DNA of 34,583 nucleotides from a virus. Made by a program: the position numbers and the translations under genes. Shown one piece after another: positions 1,168 to 21,161 of the stretch (position 1 is the first letter of the stretch; each line of letters starts with the position of its first letter). The stretch spans positions 1-34,583 of IMG/VR virus record IMGVR_UViG_3300038701_001616; one strand, written 5' to 3'. The notes below the pieces were generated by a model. It was given only the letters and a program-made list of their open reading frames with translations. It was not told the DNA's origin and did no database searches.

Positions 1168-1478
1168 TTTTCGACCTCCAGCGCAGCGTGGGCGGTAGAA
1201 CGGTAGAAACCTATAGGGGTTTCTACCGTTTCTACCGCCTTCATCGCCGCAATGCGGAAACGGTAGAAATAGCGGTAGAAACGTGTTTTTAGCATTTCTA
1301 CCGCCCCAGCTAGATCATTGTTTTTATTGGATTTCAGCGGTAGAAACGTGAATTTTAGCATTTCTACCGCCTGTGGATAAAACCCCCGAAAATGGACGTT
1401 TTCTGCGGTGCAGAAAGAGGGGGCGGTAGAAACGCTATTTCTACCGGTTGTAAAATTTGTATAAGCCTTTGCTTTCAT
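1164..1478 (-). CDS. Iteron-spanning ORF, coupled on both sides (104 aa)
   Basis: This frame covers the whole repeat array. Its start codon shares one base with the stop of the primase-helicase gene (TAATG), and an AGGAG ribosome site lies about nine bases upstream. Its stop overlaps the start of the 192-aa gene (ATGA). Both junctions are what a genuine operon gene would have. Against this, the protein is low in complexity because the iterons translate into repeats such as AVEMLK, VETVET and FYR, and no domain is visible. It could be a translated origin region, as in lambdoid phages whose iterons lie inside O, or a frame kept open only to couple translation. Confidence 0.42.
   Translation of the reverse strand: MKAKAYTNFTTGRNSVSTAPSFCTAENVHFRGFYPQAVEMLKFTFLPLKSNKNNDLAGAVEMLKTRFYRYFYRFRIAAMKAVETVETPIGFYRSTAHAALEVEK
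1193..1446. repeat. Iteron array CGGTAGAAA(C), putative replication origin
   Basis: Eleven copies of the core GGTAGAA(A) or its complement lie in about 250 bp. Forward copies start near 1193, 1201, 1261, 1273, 1338 and 1424; inverted copies start near 1219, 1229, 1295, 1361 and 1438. They face each other in pairs and so form palindromes. Two pairs (1273-1305 and 1338-1371) are near-identical copies of a unit of about 33 bp with the spacer TTTTAGCA. The array directly follows the primase/helicase gene. Clustered iterons beside a replication gene are a standard phage and plasmid origin layout. An operator array is the alternative. Confidence 0.8.
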
Positions 1479-3547
1479 TATCTAATTCTCCTATCTACGC
1501 GCCAAATCATGCTTTTTCCTGTTACAAATATTCCGCGACTTTCGGACAGTGCGCGGACTGCGTGATTGAAGGCATGGCGGGGGCTGTTCGAGGTCATTTT
1601 GCCCATGCAGATTTCCCGCAGGGCCTCCGTTTCGACTGCCCAGAATTGCCCCGGTTCCGGCATTCCGACGCCCCCGGGATTGGGTTGCGCCAGCCCTTCG
1701 GCCACCATCTGATCGAAGGCTTCGGCGACGATTTTCTGGTTTCCGCCTAGGCCCTTTTTCGACTTTTTGGCGGCTATGAAGTCCTCGCTATTTGCGGATT
1801 CAACAACGCAGCTTGTGACCTCGTCGCCGTCTTGATCGTGGCCCAGCGTGACGCTTTTGAGGGTAAAGGCGAAGCTGTCGGATCCGGCGTAGTCGCGCTG
1901 TTTCGTGACCATGGCGGCGCGGTGTTGTGCGCCGTCCTCGTCGTCTGTGGTCTGCACTTCGATTTCCGTATCGGTCGCAGCGCGCAGGCTGGAATGGCCT
2001 CTAGCGCCTCTTGCTGTGTCCTTGCCGGTGTGGTGCACAAGCATGATGTGGGCCTGCGTTGCGGCTCTTAGGGCGTCGATATTTCGAATAAGCGCGGTCA
2101 TGTCTGCGGCGCTGTTTTCGTCGCCTCCGGCCATCACGCGGGACAGGGTGTCTATGACAATCATCAGGGGGGCGTCAGGGGCGCGCGCCTTGACCTCTTG
2201 GGCCAATGTCAGCACCGTATTCAGGTCCGCTTCTGATTGCAGCAGATCCATTCCGGCGCGGCGCAGAGCGAACGGCACTTCACACACGCCGGTTTCTGCG
2301 CGCAGGGCGGCAATCCTGTTTGCCACGCCTCTGCCGCCTTCTGCGGCGAGATAGAGCACGGCGGTTTGGCACACCCGCTTGTTGCGCCACTGCGCGCCGA
2401 TTGCGGCGTGATAGGCTACGTCGAGGGCAAAGAAGGTCTTGCCGCTGTTCGACGGCCCGTAGACAACGCTCATGGTTTCCTGGGCGAGAACGCCTTTGAT
2501 GATGTAGCTATCGGCGAGTACCGGCTGAATATCATCGAACCATTCGAGGCCGGCCGGCTGCGCTTCGCTTGTCGTGGCAATGGCTGGTGGCTCGGCGTAT
2601 TTCGGCTCTGGCGTCCATCCCTTTGCGCGCGCCCCGTCGATGGCCGTCTGCACCTCTCTGGCGGTGTCCTCTGCGGTATACCCGGCCAAGGTCAGGGGCT
2701 GCGTCAGGGCGTGAATTTCCGGGTCTGCCAGCCCTTTGCTGACATATGACGCCACGAGACGTATTATCGCGTTATGCCAATCATTCCCCTGCATTGCCTG
2801 AATGGCCATGCGTTCACGGTCGAGCGGTGCTTCGAAGCCGCCAGTGTCGATCCTGAGCGTGTTTTGCGCGGGTGCTGGCGCTGCTGCGAAAACGCGGCCC
2901 ATCTGATCCAGCGTCACGGGCTCGCGGTCGTCGTCGTACTGCGTTCTGATCGTCGTGACTTCTTTGGCGTATCCGCGCTCGACCTTGTGCTTTGCGGGGT
3001 AGCTGACGGTTCCGCCTACGCGCATGATGCGCGACGGGTTCACAACGGTGCTGTCAGAATTGAAGTGCGCCGCGATGCGCTGCTGCATGTCGCGCCACGC
3101 TGACAAATCGGTAATTGGATCTTCCAACTGCCAGTAAATGTGTACGCGGGTTTCCGGTGTTTTGCCGGTGACGATTGCTGCCGAGTATTTCGGGCCGTCG
3201 AAGCGACGGACGTTTTGCGCGCTGTTCTGGTCGTCGCAGTCTGCCCATAGAAAGAAGCTGGCGAGAATGTCGGCGTCGGACGCGGATCCAGTTACATCGT
3301 GCCGGATAGGATTGCGCACGGCATAGATATTATAGCCAAGCCCGTTCATGCTTTCGCACCACTCGACTGCATCATCTATCCAGTCAGGCGCGAATTTAGC
3401 TGTTTGGGGCTGCGCCCCTTCCTTGAAGGCGCGGATTTCAAAAACGGCGGGGGTGCTTAATTCGCCCCAGCGCGCGACCATATACTCGAGGTCGTGGCGG
3501 ATTTCTGCGGTGTTCGGTGTGACCGCCTGCTCTGCACTCGCGGTCAT
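1478..3547 (-). CDS. Primase-polymerase / RepA-like helicase fusion
   Basis: A 689-residue replication protein. The N-terminal part (about 20-215) looks like a prim-pol domain of the archaeo-eukaryotic primase fold: an acidic metal-binding motif WADCDD at 101-106, the segment TRVHIYWQLEDP near 133-144 and NPSRIMRVGGTV near 170-181. The C-terminal part (about 340-570) is a RepA/DnaB-like AAA ATPase with Walker A GPSNSGKT at 364-371, Walker B LMIVIDTLSR at 461-470 and VHHTGKD at 504-510. It would unwind and prime phage DNA, probably at the adjacent iterons. Its start overlaps the stop of the 99-aa gene (TGATG). The domain assignments rest on motifs; the ATPase is the surer one. Confidence 0.93.
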   Translation of the reverse strand: MTASAEQAVTPNTAEIRHDLEYMVARWGELSTPAVFEIRAFKEGAQPQTAKFAPDWIDDAVEWCESMNGLGYNIYAVRNPIRHDVTGSASDADILASFFLWADCDDQNSAQNVRRFDGPKYSAAIVTGKTPETRVHIYWQLEDPITDLSAWRDMQQRIAAHFNSDSTVVNPSRIMRVGGTVSYPAKHKVERGYAKEVTTIRTQYDDDREPVTLDQMGRVFAAAPAPAQNTLRIDTGGFEAPLDRERMAIQAMQGNDWHNAIIRLVASYVSKGLADPEIHALTQPLTLAGYTAEDTAREVQTAIDGARAKGWTPEPKYAEPPAIATTSEAQPAGLEWFDDIQPVLADSYIIKGVLAQETMSVVYGPSNSGKTFFALDVAYHAAIGAQWRNKRVCQTAVLYLAAEGGRGVANRIAALRAETGVCEVPFALRRAGMDLLQSEADLNTVLTLAQEVKARAPDAPLMIVIDTLSRVMAGGDENSAADMTALIRNIDALRAATQAHIMLVHHTGKDTARGARGHSSLRAATDTEIEVQTTDDEDGAQHRAAMVTKQRDYAGSDSFAFTLKSVTLGHDQDGDEVTSCVVESANSEDFIAAKKSKKGLGGNQKIVAEAFDQMVAEGLAQPNPGGVGMPEPGQFWAVETEALREICMGKMTSNSPRHAFNHAVRALSESRGIFVTGKSMIWRVDRRIR

Positions 3548-5773: not shown

Positions 5774-6028
5774 CTAAAAAGCCCCCGACGCCGAAGCGCC
5801 GGGGAGTTGGACAGAGAGGATTGCGGCAGATGTAACCCGATCTGCCAGCGGGGTTCCGTGAGTGGTGTGCCGGGTCGCAGGCCCACCGGACCCGGCAACG
5901 GTGTCCTGTGCGCTACTGCGGCGCTGGCCCTCCCCAACGCCCTGAGGCAAGGGGTATGGTTTTTCCCACTTGAAAAATGCGGGTGCCGTGCACACCTTTT
6001 CGGGACAGGCAAGAAAAACGGCAGTCAT
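5774..6028 (-). CDS. Doubtful ORF downstream of the Cro-like gene (84 aa)
   Basis: Starts MTAVFLACPE, with its ATG overlapping the TGA of the Cro-like gene (ATGA). The frame runs through two strong hairpins and ends inside the T-run of a terminator. Its composition (many Pro, Thr, Ala, no domain) is what a non-coding GC-rich leader would give. The coupling argues for translation; the RNA structure argues for a leader. A frame ending at 5676 (tail KINGVTIIFADGQCAKG) looks more protein-like, but no canonical start codon was found between its upstream stop and that end. Confidence 0.3.
   Translation of the reverse strand: MTAVFLACPEKVCTAPAFFKWEKPYPLPQGVGEGQRRSSAQDTVAGSGGPATRHTTHGTPLADRVTSAAILSVQLPGASASGAF
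5776..5804 (-). terminator. Strong intrinsic terminator in the early left operon
   Basis: On the minus strand a 9-bp GC-rich stem (one G-U pair) closes a TTCG tetraloop and is followed by GCTTTTT. It lies after the Cro-like gene and before the 60-aa gene and rusA. Leftward early transcription should therefore stop here unless antiterminated or restarted. Confidence 0.85.
5776..5896 (-). ncRNA. Hairpin-rich early leader ending in a terminator
   Basis: Read on the minus strand, three strong hairpins follow one another. GCCGGGTC pairs with GACCCGGC (8 bp, 5869-5896), then GGCAGAT pairs with ATCTGCC (7 bp, 5825-5846), then a 9-bp UUCG hairpin with a T-run. The block lies about 360 bp downstream of the early left promoter, before rusA and the replication genes. 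Such leaders can be antitermination sites (as the put sites of HK022) or immunity RNAs (as in P4). Which one applies here is inference. Confidence 0.5.
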
Positions 6029-6255
6029 TGCGCAGCTACCTCGCTGCACTTTGCTTCGCCGGTCCGGCGGCGCTTGACGCTCTCGGACTTGATATTCCGA
6101 AGGATCATCTGTTCCGTTTCAGGCCAGATGCGTCTTCCACCCCGCAGGCGGTCAATCAAGCGACCGTTGCGAGCCAAAAGGATGCCTGTCCGATGGTCGG
6201 AAAGACCGAATTCGTCCCGAAACCGTTCGACTTTTTTGAGAAGCAAATTTGTCAT
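6025..6255 (-). CDS. Cro-like early regulator (76 aa)
   Basis: Start taken at 6255 (MTNLLLKKVE) because a promoter with -35 TTGACT and -10 GATAGT lies just upstream and would begin the message at or next to this ATG. The longer frame to 6300 would start upstream of the -35 box. A helix-turn-helix-like region lies at about 12-45 (FRDEFGLSDHRTGILLARNG, then IDRLRGG). The C-terminus is basic (SVKRRRTGEAK). It is transcribed divergently from the CI-like repressor with operators between. It is probably the first left-operon gene and the lytic-side regulator. Confidence 0.75.
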   Translation of the reverse strand: MTNLLLKKVERFRDEFGLSDHRTGILLARNGRLIDRLRGGRRIWPETEQMILRNIKSESVKRRRTGEAKCSEVAAQ

Positions 6256-6261
6256 GCGGCA

Positions 6262-6290
6262 ACTATCGCACGCGATAGCGTGCAAGTCAA
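6262..6290 (-). promoter_or_regulatory. Early left promoter, possibly leaderless
   Basis: On the minus strand TTGACT (6285-6290) and GATAGT (6262-6267) are separated by exactly 17 bases. That spacer is the palindromic operator. The expected start point is near 6255, the ATG of the Cro-like gene, so the mRNA may have no leader. Confidence 0.75.
6268..6284. promoter_or_regulatory. Operator O1 (GCACGC-GATA-GCGTGCA)
   Basis: Palindrome with arms GCACGC and GCGTGC around four bases. It fills the spacer of the early left promoter, so a bound repressor would block RNA polymerase. The same pattern recurs at 6817 and 6848. A weaker half-site (GCACGC followed by CATAACGT) lies at 6292-6301. Confidence 0.8.
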
Positions 6291-6342
6291 CGCACGCCAT
6301 AACGTAAGTGCGAGTTTCTTGCTGCCGTGCAAAAATCAGCCG

Positions 6343-6666
6343 ATGAAAATTGGATGGTTTGATAGGTTAAAGGCTGCGATTGAGTCGGATGACCGCAGCT
6401 ATAGTCAGATTAGCGAGGCCGCTGGTCTGGGGCGCAACTACGTTCAACAGATGATCAAGAACGGCAAGCAGCCCACGGGCGATAAGCTGGGTAAGATCCT
6501 CGAAACCATGCCATCGGAAAAAGCGATGTTTATTCTGATTGGTATGGAACTAAGGGATGAAGACGTTGAATTCCTCAATCTGGTGAGACGGCTCGATCCT
6601 GATGCTCGGGAGGATGTTCGGCGTTTTCTGCATCGCTTTGCAGATGATACAGAGCCTGCAGGATAA
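6343..6666 (+). CDS. CI-like phage repressor (107 aa)
   Basis: Starts MKIGWFDRLK. The N-terminal domain is a Cro/CI-type helix-turn-helix at about 18-42 (RSYSQISEAAGLGRNYVQQMIKNG). It is followed by a lysine-containing segment and a short helical C-terminus (VEFLNLVRRLDPDAREDVRRF, about 79-99). There is no S24/LexA-type autocleavage domain. Induction would therefore depend on something other than RecA-driven self-cleavage, such as an antirepressor. Operators flank the gene on both sides, which supports its role as the immunity repressor. I chose this ATG because the domain begins here; the ribosome site is poor. Confidence 0.82.
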   Translation: MKIGWFDRLKAAIESDDRSYSQISEAAGLGRNYVQQMIKNGKQPTGDKLGKILETMPSEKAMFILIGMELRDEDVEFLNLVRRLDPDAREDVRRFLHRFADDTEPAG

Positions 6667-10853: not shown

Positions 10854-11531
10854 ATGAAAATCCTGATCGCCTGCGAAACCAGCGGCATTGCCCGCCGTGC
10901 CTTTGCCGCGCTGGGGCATGACGTGTGGTCATGCGATCTGGAACCGGCAGAGGATGGCAGCAACCGCCACGTCCGCTGCGACGTGCGGGGCGATATCCTG
11001 AACGAAGGCTGGGACCTGGCCGTGATGCACCCGCCCTGCACCCGGCTTTGCAGATCCGGTCGCCGTTGGATGAGCGGTCCCGGCAAATGGACCCCGCCCA
11101 AGCGCCTGCCACAGGGACGCACCTGGGACGACATGCGCGCCGAATTTGACCTTGGCGTCGAGGTGTTCACCGCCTGCTGGGCCGCGCCGATTGACCGCGT
11201 GGCTATCGAAAACCCGGAAATGAACGATCTGGCCCGCGACCGAATGCCAGACGACCTGCCCGCACCGCAAATGGTGCAACCGTTCTGGTTTGGCGAACCG
11301 GCCTACAAATCAACCGGCTGGTATCTGCGCGGCCTGCCACCACTCACGGAAACGCAGCGCTTGGCCGAACCAGAACGGGGCAGCGACGAATGGAAGCGCT
11401 GGAACGCGGTGCACCGAATGCCACCCGGCCCCGAGCGAGCCCGCCTGCGCAGCCGGTCCTTTCCCGGCATGATGCGCGCCGCCGCAACCCAATGGACAAC
11501 AGCCGCACTCGCGACACAGGAGACAGCATGA
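10854..11531 (+). CDS. Cytosine-C5 methyltransferase-like protein (225 aa)
   Basis: Start at 10854 (MKILIACETS) behind AAGGAG. Motif I is ILIACETSGIARRAF (3-17), an SAM-binding start with S-G in place of the usual F-x-G-x-G. Motif IV is MHPPCTRLC (58-66), carrying the catalytic-type Pro-Cys. A motif VI-like IENPEM lies at 118-123. The protein is shorter than typical C5 methyltransferases and has no obvious target-recognition domain. Similar short proteins are frequent in phages. DNA modification against host restriction is the likely role, but activity is not certain. Confidence 0.78.
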   Translation: MKILIACETSGIARRAFAALGHDVWSCDLEPAEDGSNRHVRCDVRGDILNEGWDLAVMHPPCTRLCRSGRRWMSGPGKWTPPKRLPQGRTWDDMRAEFDLGVEVFTACWAAPIDRVAIENPEMNDLARDRMPDDLPAPQMVQPFWFGEPAYKSTGWYLRGLPPLTETQRLAEPERGSDEWKRWNAVHRMPPGPERARLRSRSFPGMMRAAATQWTTAALATQETA

Positions 11532-12292
11532 TGGCCGAAAACAGCGGGATCGAGTGGACGACCCACACCTTCAATCCGTGGATTGGCTGCACGAAGGTAA
11601 GCGCGGCCTGCGACCACTGCTATGCAGAGGCATGGGATAACCGCTTTGGCGGCGAACGCTGGGGGCCACACGCCGCCAGGACGCGCACAAAGACGTGGGG
11701 CAACCCGGTCAAATGGAACCGGCAGGCCGAAGGCGCGGCAGAGCGCCCGCGTGTATTCTGCGCCAGCTTGGCGGATGTGTTCGACAACCACCGAAGCATC
11801 GACCCGTCATGGCGGCGCGAACTTTGGGCACTGATCCGGCAATGCCCGAACCTTGACTTCCTGCTGCTGACCAAGCGACCGCAAAACATCGCGCGCTATC
11901 TGCCCGAGGATTGGGGCGATGGTTATCCGAATGTGTGGCTCGGCGCGACCGTCGAAAGCCAGAAAGAAGCTGACCGCCTGGATCACCTGACCGCCGTTCC
12001 TGCCGTGGTTCATTTCCTGAGCATGGAACCATTGCTTGGCCCGGTCGATCTGTCCCGGCACATCGATCGCTTGGAATGGGTCATTACCGGCGGCGAAAGC
12101 GGCACCCACTACCGCCCAGCTGATCCTGACTGGTTCCGCAGCCTGCGCGACCAATGCGCCGCCGCCGATGTGCCGTTCCTGTTCAAGCAATGGGAAGGTC
12201 GCAACCAACGTGAAATCAAGGCCAAGGGCCGGGAACTGGATGGCGTCGTGCATGACGGCTATCCCACCGCACTGGCAAAGGAGACAGCATGA
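11528..12292 (+). CDS. DUF5131 (phage Gp37/Gp68) family protein
   Basis: A 254-residue protein starting MMAENSGIEW by ATGA overlap with the methyltransferase-like gene. It carries the family's opening WTTHTFNPWIGCTKVSAACDHCYAE (from residue 10), with a Cys set C21, C28 and C31 reminiscent of radical-SAM iron-sulphur ligands. Further conserved-looking blocks are LLLTKRPQNI, WLGATVESQKEADR and VITGGESG. The family is widespread in phages and its biochemical role is not settled to my knowledge. A radical-SAM-like reaction on a nucleic acid or nucleotide is a reasonable guess. The fusion-like spacing with the methyltransferase suggests a joint function. Confidence 0.88.
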   Translation: MMAENSGIEWTTHTFNPWIGCTKVSAACDHCYAEAWDNRFGGERWGPHAARTRTKTWGNPVKWNRQAEGAAERPRVFCASLADVFDNHRSIDPSWRRELWALIRQCPNLDFLLLTKRPQNIARYLPEDWGDGYPNVWLGATVESQKEADRLDHLTAVPAVVHFLSMEPLLGPVDLSRHIDRLEWVITGGESGTHYRPADPDWFRSLRDQCAAADVPFLFKQWEGRNQREIKAKGRELDGVVHDGYPTALAKETA

Positions 12293-16778: not shown

Positions 16779-17663
16779 GTGAAAAAACTATTCATCCATG
16801 TTGGTGCGGGGAAAACCGGCACATCGGCCTTGCAGCGGTTTTTGCTTGCCAATGAGGCGGCGCTATCGAAGCGCGGCTTTCACATGCCCGCTCATGGCCG
16901 CGTACAACGCGACCAAGGCATTCAGCACCATCCACTATCGGATCACGGCCCCTACGCCACCGGGGAGGCGCTGGACGCATGGAAGCGCATCGCAACCGAG
17001 GCCAGCGGCAATGCCGTTGTGTCGTCGGAATACCTGCACAACAAGATCAGCGGCCCAAGCGGACCGATCTTCTTTGCCAAGATCCGAAACATGTTTACGA
17101 GGCATGGCTGGCAGATTGGGGTGGTGTTCTACATCCGCCGTCAAAGCCAATGGCTTCACAGCGCCTATGCGCAGCACGTCAAGACGGGCCTAGAGACGCG
17201 GAGTTGGGACGAGTTTGCCGCCAGCTACACGCGCAACCTGCCCGACCAGATCGAAGCATTCGCGCAGGTGTTCGGCAATGACGCGATGATTGTCCGCCCG
17301 TTCGAACGCGCGCAGTTCACCGGGGGCGATATTTACCGGGACTTCTGCGCGGCTATCGGGCTGGATTGGTCGGACGGCTTCAAGGCCCCGAAAGGCGACG
17401 TGAACCCGCGCCTATGCCCCGAAGGCTTGGAAATCAAGCGCAAGCTGAACCCTTACTTTCGCACACCGCAGACCGCACAGCCCGTCCTTGATGCCCTTTT
17501 GGCCTATTCCAAGGATCAGCCCGCAGCCGCGCCGTTTTTTGACCCCGAGATAGAGGCAGAGAACGCGCCCAAATACGAGCGCATTGCAAGGATGATGGGC
17601 CGCGCCGATGGTGTGCTTTTTCACGATGGCTTGGGGGCTGAAACGCAAAAGGCCCCGGCGTGA
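16779..17663 (+). CDS. Sulfotransferase-like protein
   Basis: A 294-residue protein with a GTG start (GKKLFIH-type beginning, read MKKLFIHVGA) behind GAAAGGG. The N-terminal FIHVGAGKTGTSALQRF (5-21) matches the PAPS 5'-phosphosulphate loop of sulfotransferases. A later VFYIRRQSQWLHSAYAQHV supplies the Arg and Ser expected for the 3'-phosphate site. The family moves sulfate from PAPS to sugars or other acceptors, and its members are common in marine alphaproteobacteria. On a phage it is an accessory gene. Altering host surface polysaccharide and so excluding other phages is a plausible role, but it is inference. Confidence 0.85.
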   Translation: MKKLFIHVGAGKTGTSALQRFLLANEAALSKRGFHMPAHGRVQRDQGIQHHPLSDHGPYATGEALDAWKRIATEASGNAVVSSEYLHNKISGPSGPIFFAKIRNMFTRHGWQIGVVFYIRRQSQWLHSAYAQHVKTGLETRSWDEFAASYTRNLPDQIEAFAQVFGNDAMIVRPFERAQFTGGDIYRDFCAAIGLDWSDGFKAPKGDVNPRLCPEGLEIKRKLNPYFRTPQTAQPVLDALLAYSKDQPAAAPFFDPEIEAENAPKYERIARMMGRADGVLFHDGLGAETQKAPA

Positions 17664-18331: not shown

Positions 18332-18512
18332 TGTCGATCCTTTCGCGTGTGTCTTGATATGCCTCAGAGGCCTTCAGCGCGTCCCGTGTGCGCTCGTGTG
18401 ACGTTCCCAGCGTGTAGCCCCCGCCAAACAGGGCAGCAGCCCCCAGCGCGCCCAGAATCGCCCATTTGAGCCACGCGGGAACGGCCCGCCAGAGAATGCG
18501 CGCGGTTATCAT
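18264..18512 (-). CDS. Rz-like inner-membrane spanin
   Basis: Start at 18512 (MITARILWRA) by ATGA overlap with the endolysin stop. There is one N-terminal membrane helix (about 14-35, WLKWAILGALGAAALFGGGY). A charged periplasmic helix follows (HERTRDALKASEAYQDTRERID), ending in a proline-containing tail. This shape, position after the endolysin and out-of-frame overlap with a lipoprotein mark the i-spanin. At 82 residues it is on the short side. Confidence 0.8.
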   Translation of the reverse strand: MITARILWRAVPAWLKWAILGALGAAALFGGGYTLGTSHERTRDALKASEAYQDTRERIDNAGNDLNTPDAVDDSLRDLANP

Positions 18513-19273
18513 CGCCAGCCCTCCGCCCAAGCCCGCAGACGGTCGCGAAACACAACGGCACCGGCCAGCGTTCCGGCAATCGCCATCCCGCCAATTAGAA
18601 GCCGCGTTGTTTCATCCTGGGACTGATAAAACGCCCAAGCCGCCGCGCCGTTCAGCGTCACCCACTGCACCGCCTGCGACCAAAGCGTTTTGGACTTGGT
18701 GCGGGTTTCCCGGGGTGCCGTCCCGTCGCGGCGCTCGTTCACAACCGGCGCGGGCTTTTCGACGCCGAAGCCCATAGCCAATAGAGCCGCCTCGTATTCA
18801 CGGGCAATCTCGGCAATGGCCTGTGCCTTGTCGGTGCCGTTAACGATCCGGCGCGCGCCGACATAATCGGACCTTTGCAGCGTGACGTAATCCGCCAGCT
18901 TTTTGCCGGTGAAAAGCCCCTCCTGCATTCCGATCACAAGGATCTGCGCGGAAATATCGGGCTGCATCACAACGCGCGGGTCACTGGTCAGATCGAGGCC
19001 AAGGCGCTCACTCAGGCGCTTGTAATTGGACTCCCACGTAAGTTGCACGAAGCCGCGGCCATGCCACGGATAGTAACGCAGGTTGCGCTGTCGCCAGCCG
19101 TCCATGTCAGCGACACGCCCCGCCAGATGATATGCTTCCTCGACCGGCTCCATGGTGCGCCAGCTTTCCCAATATGCGGTTGCCAGAACATAGGCGGTCT
19201 GATTGCGCAGAAGGCCGCGCTTTTCGCACTCAGCGAGAATTAGCGGCGTTTCGCCAAGGCTCATGTCGGCCAT
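18509..19273 (-). CDS. Endolysin, GH19 (chitinase/lysozyme) type, with TM tail
   Basis: Start at 19273 (MADMSLGETP) because AAGGAAAG lies just upstream; the open frame further upstream runs into the structured-RNA region. The catalytic domain (about 1-165) has TAYWESWRTMEPVEEA (32-47), with a candidate catalytic Glu at 36, and the GH19 signature GRGFVQLTWESNYKRL (72-87). It would cleave peptidoglycan glycan strands. A linker and two hydrophobic segments follow, the last a membrane helix near 222-242 (LLIGGMAIAGTLAGAVVF). A C-terminal TM on an endolysin is unusual and may tether it. Confidence 0.88.
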   Translation of the reverse strand: MADMSLGETPLILAECEKRGLLRNQTAYVLATAYWESWRTMEPVEEAYHLAGRVADMDGWRQRNLRYYPWHGRGFVQLTWESNYKRLSERLGLDLTSDPRVVMQPDISAQILVIGMQEGLFTGKKLADYVTLQRSDYVGARRIVNGTDKAQAIAEIAREYEAALLAMGFGVEKPAPVVNERRDGTAPRETRTKSKTLWSQAVQWVTLNGAAAWAFYQSQDETTRLLIGGMAIAGTLAGAVVFRDRLRAWAEGWR

Positions 19274-19316
19274 GGTCTTTCCTTTCGGGTTGGGGTGTGG
19301 TATTCTTGAGCAATCA

Positions 19317-19623
19317 AGAGCGCGTTGATAAACTCTAACAATGGTGTTAGGCACGACCTTGCCGGGTAAATCCGGCAAAGACCTGAGCCGCGTCATAGGT
19401 CTATAAAAATGCTACGGTAGGGCTGGTGCAAGTCCAGCAACTTAACCCGCGTTGATGTGGATGTATGTACCTAGGTAGCTCCTAGTCACGGCGTTGAATG
19501 AGACGTTGGCATACATCCTCATGAGCGCGGACCACTGAGGCTGGTAATCTCAGGTAATAAGGAACGGTGAGCTATGTAGAATAGACACCACGGAATGCAG
19601 CATCCAACTGCGGCCCGCGCTCT
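19317..19623 (+). ncRNA. Candidate large structured RNA (~310 nt)
   Basis: No coding frame is supported between 19274 and 19621, yet the sequence is packed with complementarity. AGAGCGCG (19317-19324) pairs perfectly with CGCGCTCT (19616-19623) and closes the element. A long imperfect helix of about 20 bp joins 19447-19468 with 19509-19530, including GGATGTATG with CATACATCC. Local hairpins lie at 19334-19351, 19359-19378, 19379-19402, 19422-19438, 19471-19485, 19531-19555 and 19566-19589. The excess of A over T and A-rich junctions favour plus-strand RNA. A minus-strand endolysin leader is the alternative. A possible extended -10 (TGGTATTCT) is at 19298-19306. Family not recognised. Confidence 0.7.
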
Positions 19624-19834
19624 ACTCCGCCCAATCTCTGACGCATCGCCAAAAGCTGGCCTCACAATGGCCCCGCTCATAGGGCCGAAACGCCACGTCC
19701 ATCACCAGACGCCATGCCCGCCAGAACGGATCTCGACGCCATGCCGCGCGGGCGCATAGGCTCCAGCCGTAGCCGAATAGTCGGCTGTGGATCGTTACTG
19801 ATACGGCCTCAACCAGTACAGCAACGCGGCGCAT
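19622..19834 (-). CDS. Small aromatic/basic protein (70 aa)
   Basis: Start taken at 19834 (MRRVAVLVEA), next to the stop of the 140-aa gene; a longer reading would overlap that gene by over 50 bases. There is a hydrophobic N-terminal segment (VAVLVEAVSVTIHSRLFGYGW), then Trp- and Arg-rich sequence (AAWRRDPFWRAWRLVMDVAF). It could be a membrane-associated lysis accessory protein. There is no Shine-Dalgarno site, so translation would rely on coupling. Its stop touches the 3' arm of the structured RNA. Confidence 0.5.
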   Translation of the reverse strand: MRRVAVLVEAVSVTIHSRLFGYGWSLCARAAWRRDPFWRAWRLVMDVAFRPYERGHCEASFWRCVRDWAE

Positions 19835-19835
19835 G

Positions 19836-20258
19836 TCACGGGGCCGCGCCAATGGCAAAGACAGGGCTTTGCGCGTGTGTCTGTTCATCGCCCCAAGACC
19901 ATGTTGCAATCAAGCGATATGCACCCTCGGGCAAGCTGGAAGCGGGGCAAGCGTCACTGCCGACCCACTGCGAAAGCGGCATTGAATAAGCCGCCCGCCC
20001 TGATTTGTAGTTCCACGTTCCCCCGCCAGTGCAGCGCCGCAATGGATCGCCCGTCGCCACATTGACAACCTGCGCACGCCACTTGGCAAAGAATACCGGC
20101 GCGTTAGTGGTCACGGTTCTATCTTGCGTGACGATTCCGGCCTCGTATGAAAGCTGATGCACCACGATAGGCGCAGGTCCCGGCAGGACCGCTTGCAAAA
20201 CCGCAGTTCCGATTGCGACGGCACCAACGCCGCCGACCGCTGTATTGATAACGCTCAT
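19836..20258 (-). CDS. Membrane-anchored hypothetical protein (140 aa)
   Basis: Start at 20258 (MSVINTAVGG) with a strong GGAGGTG site. An N-terminal hydrophobic segment (VGAVAIGTAVLQAVLPG, about 11-27) is an anchor or signal. It is followed by a beta-rich domain (VVHQLSYEAGIVTQDRTVTT, FFAKWRAQVVN, then YRLIATWSWGDEQ) with two Cys that may pair in the periplasm. It lies in the lysis block. The role is unknown; an exported lysis or exclusion protein is possible. Confidence 0.7.
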   Translation of the reverse strand: MSVINTAVGGVGAVAIGTAVLQAVLPGPAPIVVHQLSYEAGIVTQDRTVTTNAPVFFAKWRAQVVNVATGDPLRRCTGGGTWNYKSGRAAYSMPLSQWVGSDACPASSLPEGAYRLIATWSWGDEQTHAQSPVFAIGAAP

Positions 20259-20476
20259 TTTAGAAGCACCTCCAACGCGGCCATAATGTCGGCCCTGTTG
20301 ATAAAGCCAATCACTGCGCCGATGACGCACAGCGCCCGCCAGTTGCTCACAACGGCATGAATAGGCCCGGTGATGATCCATCCCTTTTCGGCCTTTTCCA
20401 GCGCATCCCACACGCCCTGCCATTCGTTATCCTCGGGCGGTGTTCCCCGCCCGGTCTTTAGCTTGTCGTCGCCCAT
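20255..20476 (-). CDS. Small membrane protein, holin candidate (73 aa)
   Basis: Starts MGDDKLKTGR. A charged N-terminal third and an amphipathic middle (WQGVWDALEKAEKGW) are followed by one clear membrane segment (LCVIGAVIGFI, about 49-62) and a short hydrophobic tail. Its stop overlaps the start of the next gene. Placement in the lysis block makes it a holin or antiholin candidate among several small membrane proteins here. Confidence 0.65.
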   Translation of the reverse strand: MGDDKLKTGRGTPPEDNEWQGVWDALEKAEKGWIITGPIHAVVSNWRALCVIGAVIGFINRADIMAALEVLLK

Positions 20477-20500
20477 GACGCCCCCGCAATGTCAGGTGAA

Positions 20501-20662
20501 TTAGCGCGCGAAACGACGCCAGATAGCCCGCGCGGCTCGATGGGCGCGCGGAATAAGGATCAACCAAACGGCCCACTCAATAACCCCGGCCACCCCGGAC
20601 AGAAGGCCCGCCAAAACGGCAACCTCGGGATTTGCAGCTAGGATTTCAAGGATTTGGGACAT
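20501..20662 (-). CDS. 53-aa membrane protein, holin candidate
   Basis: Short gene starting MSQILEILAA. One long hydrophobic stretch (VAVLAGLLSGVAGVIEWAV, about 14-32, continuing WLILIP) is followed by a very basic cytoplasmic-type tail (RAHRAARAIWRRFAR). A hydrophobic helix with a basic C-terminal tail is the common holin plan. It fills the gap between the 73-aa and 146-aa membrane proteins. No strong ribosome site is visible. Confidence 0.62.
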   Translation of the reverse strand: MSQILEILAANPEVAVLAGLLSGVAGVIEWAVWLILIPRAHRAARAIWRRFAR

Positions 20663-20700
20663 TCTGGCACCGGCTATCTACCGGCCCAGAATACCATAAA

Positions 20701-20755
20701 TGACGCTTGTTGGCGTCAGGCTACTTTGTGTCAACGTGACGCCGGTTAGCGTCAA
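20701..20755 (-). repeat. Tandem hairpins TGACGC(N6)GCGTCA
   Basis: Two copies of TGACGC-Y-AAC..GCGTCA lie about 36 bp apart. One is inside the last codons of the 146-aa gene and the other just after its stop. The outer one is followed by TTTAT on the minus strand, so it could act as a weak terminator or attenuator before the small holin-candidate gene. Confidence 0.5.
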
Positions 20756-21161
20756 TCCTTTTCTTGACCCTCAGCGCAAGCAGAAGCGCCCAGAATGCCA
20801 TGATCGAAAGCCGGTAGGCAGGCGAGTAGTCCAGCGTAAACACCGGCGAAGCTGACCCCGCCTCGCTGTACGGCAAAAGCGCCCCGGCTGCGCCAAGGCC
20901 GAACATGGTGGCGTCAAACCAGCTATCGCCAGGCAACCACCGCTGCACCGCCCATTCGACGCCTACCGCGTAGGGCAGGAACACGGCAAGGAACGCCCAA
21001 GCCTTGACGGGCATTTCCCCCGTTGTCAGCGCCCAAACGTCGCAAAAGGTCGCCGCCGCCAAGACGCCTAGAAGGGTGTGGCTCAGTTGGTTCCTCAATT
21101 CGCCGTACCAATCGCGCGCGAAATCGTCGGGCGTCATCAGATAGCGCCAGAACCCCATCAC
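20721..21161 (-). CDS. Polytopic membrane protein (146 aa)
   Basis: Starts MMGFWRYLMT. Hydrophobic segments at about 30-48 (LLGVLAAATFCDVWAL), 54-73 (WAFLAVFLPYAVGVEWAV), 83-98 and 117-132 (SIMAFWALLLALRV) indicate three to four membrane helices. The C-terminus is basic (KKRIDANRR). It follows the tailspike gene and starts the lysis block. It might be a holin-type or host-range membrane protein. The size is large for a simple holin. Confidence 0.68.
   Translation of the reverse strand: MMGFWRYLMTPDDFARDWYGELRNQLSHTLLGVLAAATFCDVWALTTGEMPVKAWAFLAVFLPYAVGVEWAVQRWLPGDSWFDATMFGLGAAGALLPYSEAGSASPVFTLDYSPAYRLSIMAFWALLLALRVKKRIDANRRHVDTK

Follow-up and report, generated by a model that had tools for sequence, protein, structure and literature searches.

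A candidate structured RNA of about 310 nt upstream of the endolysin gene of a probable temperate podovirus

Large structured phage RNAs such as GOLLD and ROOL are rare and ornate, and their function is unknown. The level of GOLLD RNA goes up during lysis (PMC12286853). In Pseudomonas phage PAK_P4, an antisense RNA linked to an endolysin gene has been described under the name PAK_P4as15 and was proposed to delay lysis (review PMC12197685). The element described here, at 19317-19623 of a virus sequence, resembles GOLLD and ROOL in being a candidate large, highly branched phage non-coding RNA. It differs from them in length (~310 nt, whereas GOLLD is often >800 nt and both are longer than the candidate) and in its surroundings, because GOLLD and ROOL are often found near tRNA islands, whereas ARAGORN detected 0 tRNA or tmRNA genes in the sequence analyzed here; the same result ruled out the element's being a tRNA or tmRNA. 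Like PAK_P4as15, the candidate would be a phage RNA opposite a lysis region; unlike it, the candidate is intergenic and is predicted to be strongly folded.

The gap upstream of the endolysin gene

The window is the whole stretch of DNA that was analyzed, IMG/VR record IMGVR_UViG_3300038701_001616, a single linear virus sequence of 34,583 bases. Matches to Phage_integrase (E 3e-21) and to a P22-like portal (E 1e-53) show that it encodes an integrase and a portal, and its source is therefore probably a temperate podovirus. The late genes are on the minus strand and extend from the portal at 34.5 kb to ~17.7 kb. Near the end of this operon is the endolysin gene (18509-19273, minus strand; phrog_181, E 8e-23), which has relatives at other loci, begins with an ATG at 19273 and is the left-hand neighbor of the RNA candidate. 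Upstream of it is a small orphan gene (19622-19888, minus strand) for which relatives were sought and none were found. The TAG stop codon of this gene abuts the candidate and, in plus-strand coordinates (19622-19624), lies partly within and partly beside the 3' strand of the candidate's closing stem.

From the start of the endolysin gene (19273) to the stop codon of the upstream gene (19622) there are ~350 bp without a supported gene, in agreement with an earlier reading made from the sequence only. The open reading frames in this gap are just 25-54 aa or enter from the flanks, and none was of note. The possibility that the endolysin extends N-terminally into the gap, from an ATG at 19396, was rejected, as the starts of its relatives correspond to the internal ATG. 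The other genes between 17.7 and 22.9 kb are also rare, with few or no relatives among the fetched loci; the candidate therefore lies in a variable module, and its neighborhood is a variable lysis cassette.

Other features were seen nearby. A plus-strand gene of 294 aa (16779-17663), which converges on the end of that operon, appeared sulfotransferase-like by eye (MKKLFIHVGAGKTGTSALQ); Pfam and PHROG gave no match for it, and a distant relative (26%) was present in L188, a locus that also encodes a related endolysin. Several repeats of the TTGGCGTCA/TGACGCC type, which are possible operator sites, lie at 20695-20760 between two minus-strand genes (20476-20721).

Predicted fold and preferred strand

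In the predicted plus-strand fold, a closing stem (P1) encloses seven hairpins and two further helices, P4 (long-range and interrupted) and P6 (19 bp). Most helices had a mean pair probability (P) above 0.9, and the ensemble was well defined. P1 is formed by AGAGCGCG (19317-19324) and CGCGCTCT (19616-19623), which are perfectly complementary over 8 bp, as had been read from the letters; the predicted fold uses seven of the eight pairs (mean P 0.98). Inside P1 are hairpins P2 (19334-19351, 7 bp, P 0.85) and P3 (19359-19378, 7 bp, P 0.92), followed by P4, in which 19381-19401 pairs with 19530-19555 to give three segments totaling 18 bp (P 0.93-0.98). Hairpin P5 (19416-19447) has a T-loop-type loop, UGCAAGU, an inner stem GCUGG/CCAGC (19422-19438, P 0.92) and an outer stem with a P of 0.51. 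P6, in which 19448-19468 pairs with 19509-19529 (P 0.99), carries hairpins P7 (19471-19485, CUAGG/CCUAG with loop UAGCU) and P8 (19489-19508, 7 bp including three G-U pairs). Hairpins P9 (19566-19589, GGUG/CACC and CUAU/AUAG) and P10 (19592-19616, UGCAG/CUGCG) complete the predicted structure. An alternative conformer pairing 19523-19529 with 19616-19622 was 13 kcal/mol worse and was rejected.

Most of the pairing noted in the sequence-only reading was recovered by folding. Its imperfect helix of about 20 bp is found at 19447-19467 and 19510-19530 (21 nt, 86% complementary, P 0.99), and its count of at least seven local hairpins agrees with the seven robust hairpins and one weak 3-bp hairpin in the fold. 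The exception was a proposed pseudoknot between TAGCT (19476-19480) and AGCTA (19570-19574). The letters are present; however, 5-mer complements of loops occurred four times, where shuffling gives 3.1 on average, and a stem predicted with a P of 0.99 already overlaps AGCTA. Because of this chance-level count and this overlap, the pseudoknot was dropped as evidence.

Both strands were folded, as that reading had suggested, and both were more stable than shuffled sequences. For the plus strand (19316-19624), the folding energy was -122.3 kcal/mol, compared with -94.7 +/- 5.2 in shuffles (z -5.36); for the minus strand of the same element it was -106.9 (z -3.51). With loose boundaries the z values were -3.73 (plus) and -2.87 (minus), and in a 400-nt context the minus strand formed no enclosing domain. 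The 111 unpaired bases of the plus strand comprised 49 A (44%), 23 U, 22 G and 17 C, whereas those of the minus strand comprised 42 U, 36 C, 34 A and 13 G. The A-over-T excess in the letters, first put at about 80:64, was counted as 84:66. The G+C content of the element is ~49-50%, versus ~60% around it. Within the 4 kb profiled, the GC skew changed from negative to positive (G>C on the plus strand) over the element only, and this reversal is embedded in a 2-kb stretch of negative values. The better fold, the A-rich unpaired bases and the reversal of GC skew all favor the plus strand, which had also been named as the likelier one from the letters. A sigma-70-like promoter and an intrinsic terminator were looked for at the element, and none was recognized.

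A scan of the window with 309-nt windows on both strands placed the exact element second among its most extreme fold regions. The strongest fold, on both strands, lay at ~1185-1450, where inverted copies of GGCGGTAGAAACG...CATTTCTACCGCC form an array immediately upstream of a minus-strand AAA_25 (RepA-like) gene (1478-3547); this array probably represents replication iterons or operators. Moderately strong folds on both strands (z ~-3.5) were also seen at 6001-6600, around divergent short open reading frames, and are perhaps regulatory.

Two controls were used to judge how unusual the fold is. Among random 309-nt windows of related phages, one of 760 was as extreme as the element, in a comparison that favors the element because its boundaries had been chosen to fit. 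In the second control, each random 400-nt region was allowed to pick its own closed domain (559 regions, 469 domains); the element had a z of -4.4 to -5.2, depending on the frame, a value that was reached by 1 to ~5 of the 469 domains. The excess of folding is real but moderate, at ~0.2-1% per region. There are ~100 such regions per genome, and therefore the fold is not overwhelming alone. Its stability and definition nevertheless exceed what base composition accounts for, a property of the large structured phage non-coding RNAs, which are a class by function and not a family by homology.

Known RNA families and relatives

Comparison of the window with Rfam 15 (4227 models) gave 0 matches at the gathering score, and at E values up to 5 gave nothing but a 17-nt Twister-sister fragment. 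This absence from Rfam agrees with the sequence-only reading, in which no match to GOLLD or ROOL had been seen. A cobalamin riboswitch (RF00174) was rejected, since there was no match even at E 10 with a search that was positive in 11 of 14 control genomes; in addition, the candidate differs from cobalamin riboswitches in having no plus-strand gene downstream that it could control. The candidate appears to share with these riboswitches a T-loop hairpin (GGUGCAA.UCC) with CCCGC after it and, beyond the next long helix, a strand resembling GGACCACUG; we mention this likeness as a lead only.

The Twister-sister fragment is the inner P5 hairpin. In the cmscan alignment, GCUGGUGCAAGUCCAGC (19422-19438, 17 nt; GCUGG-UGCAAGU-CCAGC), which carries the T-loop sequence, was aligned to SL4 of twister-sister (RF02681) with 14.6 bits (E 4.8), and was identical to the aligned SL4 consensus region except for covarying stem bases. 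In the solved twister-sister structure, the SL4 loop forms a U-A trans pair, and two of its bases are extruded and dock on the catalytic loop (PMC5660989). An SL4-type hairpin with the T-loop-like UGCAAGU loop is present in the candidate. The rest of the twister-sister covariance model was unmatched: neither both strands of the catalytic internal loop L1 nor its C-A cleavage step was found in the candidate. P6 contains an L1-like loop with CUCAU (19518-19522) opposite AUGUG, where L1 of twister-sister would have GCAAG. The topology is also reversed, with the T-loop hairpin of the candidate on the wrong side of the L1-like loop. On these grounds a twister-sister ribozyme was rejected. Because the catalytic loop is absent, P5 is best read as a putative general tertiary-docking module.

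Relatives of the element were sought in several collections. With blastn there was no relative among 50,697 phage and 72,556 plasmid records, and nothing in two samples of bacterial genomes, one drawn at phylum level (398) and one at class level (385). IMG/VR and GTDB were scanned for exact patterns built on the T-loop hairpin and its flanks, with no match. Two looser loop patterns found 54 loci, which by eye were coding sequence or tRNA-like T-arms with no structural match; the GGUGCAAGUCC core of P5 also occurs in phage tRNA-like T-arms found by pattern. A covariance model made from this one sequence scored the window itself at 390 bits. It had no match in loci fetched by the major capsid protein (up to 87% identical) or the endolysin (up to 68% identical), or in 80 full records of related viruses. 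Among a sample of 385 alphaproteobacterial genomes it had one weak match (23.5 bits), which was antisense inside a protein gene and was rejected as chance, as was a 21-bp match inside a coding gene in L028.

In the loci fetched by the endolysin, the regions upstream of its relatives hold other genes or unrelated sequence, and the RNA is absent. For this reason the proposal that the element might be a conserved minus-strand leader of the endolysin gene was left unsupported. One of these upstream regions, L155:5540-6010, is a long spacer with a row of several terminator-like hairpins (CCCCGG...CCGGGGTTTT) on the opposite strand.

Interpretation of the element

The reading that we favor, at a little less than an even chance, is that 19317-19623 is a stand-alone plus-strand non-coding RNA of ~310 nt that acts by itself. 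Such an RNA would be closed by P1 and would branch into the seven hairpins, P4 and the 19-bp P6. Its folded shape would be its mode of action, with the T-loop hairpin as the likeliest element for tertiary docking. The predicted fold, the strand bias, the gap and the absence of known relatives are direct results; that the element is transcribed, has a function and acts by shape rather than by pairing is inferred. The transcript would run head-on to the late operon, and its sequence would hence also complement that of the endolysin leader; a side effect on late transcription is therefore possible. Within the variable lysis cassette of this probable temperate podovirus, the element may be a rare or recent arrival. 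The wider claim, that this is the first known sequence of a new class, is one that we consider possible but put forward tentatively. An RNA of this class would be large (~310 nt), would have a tertiary fold that includes a T-loop hairpin, and would be encoded by a phage beside its lysis genes, antisense to the late operon; it would act by shape as a scaffold, decoy or catalyst. The original proposal of an unrecognized, probably plus-strand structured RNA of ~310 nt has been borne out in its fold and in its absence from Rfam; its pseudoknot and its conserved endolysin leader have not.

The element could instead be a structured but non-functional spacer, perhaps a decayed insertion, with a chance fold that was singled out by lying in a gap. 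We judge this somewhat unlikely; it nevertheless remains a serious rival, since the searches gave the candidate neither a homologue nor a promoter or terminator. The failure to find a relative in any collection searched, the chance-level pseudoknot and the equal folds among the boundary-optimized control domains are all as a spacer would predict. What a spacer does not readily account for is the element's rank as the second most extreme fold of the window, together with its strand-specific composition and A-rich loops. Moreover, compact phage genomes seldom retain 350 bp of idle spacer.

The remaining explanations are less probable. A cis-antisense regulator, in which the plus-strand RNA or head-on transcription pairs with or blocks the minus-strand message and delays lysis, would be fully complementary to the minus-strand transcript between the endolysin gene and the gene preceding it, and has a precedent in the lysis delay proposed for PAK_P4as15 (review PMC12197685). 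However, ~35-45 nt separate the element from the Shine-Dalgarno region and start codon of the endolysin gene, a plus-strand transcript would head away from that gene, relatives with similar lysis genes lack the element, and a 310-nt branched fold with a T-loop exceeds what simple antisense pairing needs; we consider this regulator improbable. Slightly less probable again is a minus-strand leader through which the endolysin message would be controlled, either in its translation or in its stability. The element is directly upstream of the endolysin gene on the same strand, and the minus strand also folds better than shuffles, but its fold is the weaker one, its unpaired bases are rich in U and C, and no enclosing domain formed in the 400-nt context. 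In the predicted leader, the Shine-Dalgarno region (19277-19282) is partly accessible, and the loci of endolysin relatives lack the element. Least probable, and in our view very unlikely, is the remnant, or a minimal version, of an RNA that is catalytic or mobile (a group I or II intron, twister-sister-like ribozyme, retron RNA or guide RNA of an IS element). The closed P1, the resemblance of the T-loop hairpin to twister-sister SL4 and the insertion-like occurrence in one phage only would fit such an origin. Against it are the absence of the twister-sister catalytic loop and of any Rfam match at E 5 save the 17-nt, 14.6-bit hairpin. A retron and group I or II introns were rejected individually, with no model match and no partner gene; nothing beside the element was recognized as a reverse transcriptase, HNH or TnpB-like gene.

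The favored reading, a self-acting plus-strand RNA, thus concerns a strong single-sequence candidate rather than a proven new RNA, and its present value is that of a well-delimited target, not yet a discovery. If it is correct, a compact RNA next to lysis genes would lend itself well to probing, and variable phage modules would carry orphan RNAs that homology-based discovery misses.

Elsewhere in the window, a DUF5131 (PF07505) protein is encoded at 11477-12292 (E 6e-80), adjoining an unassigned plus-strand gene of 238 aa.
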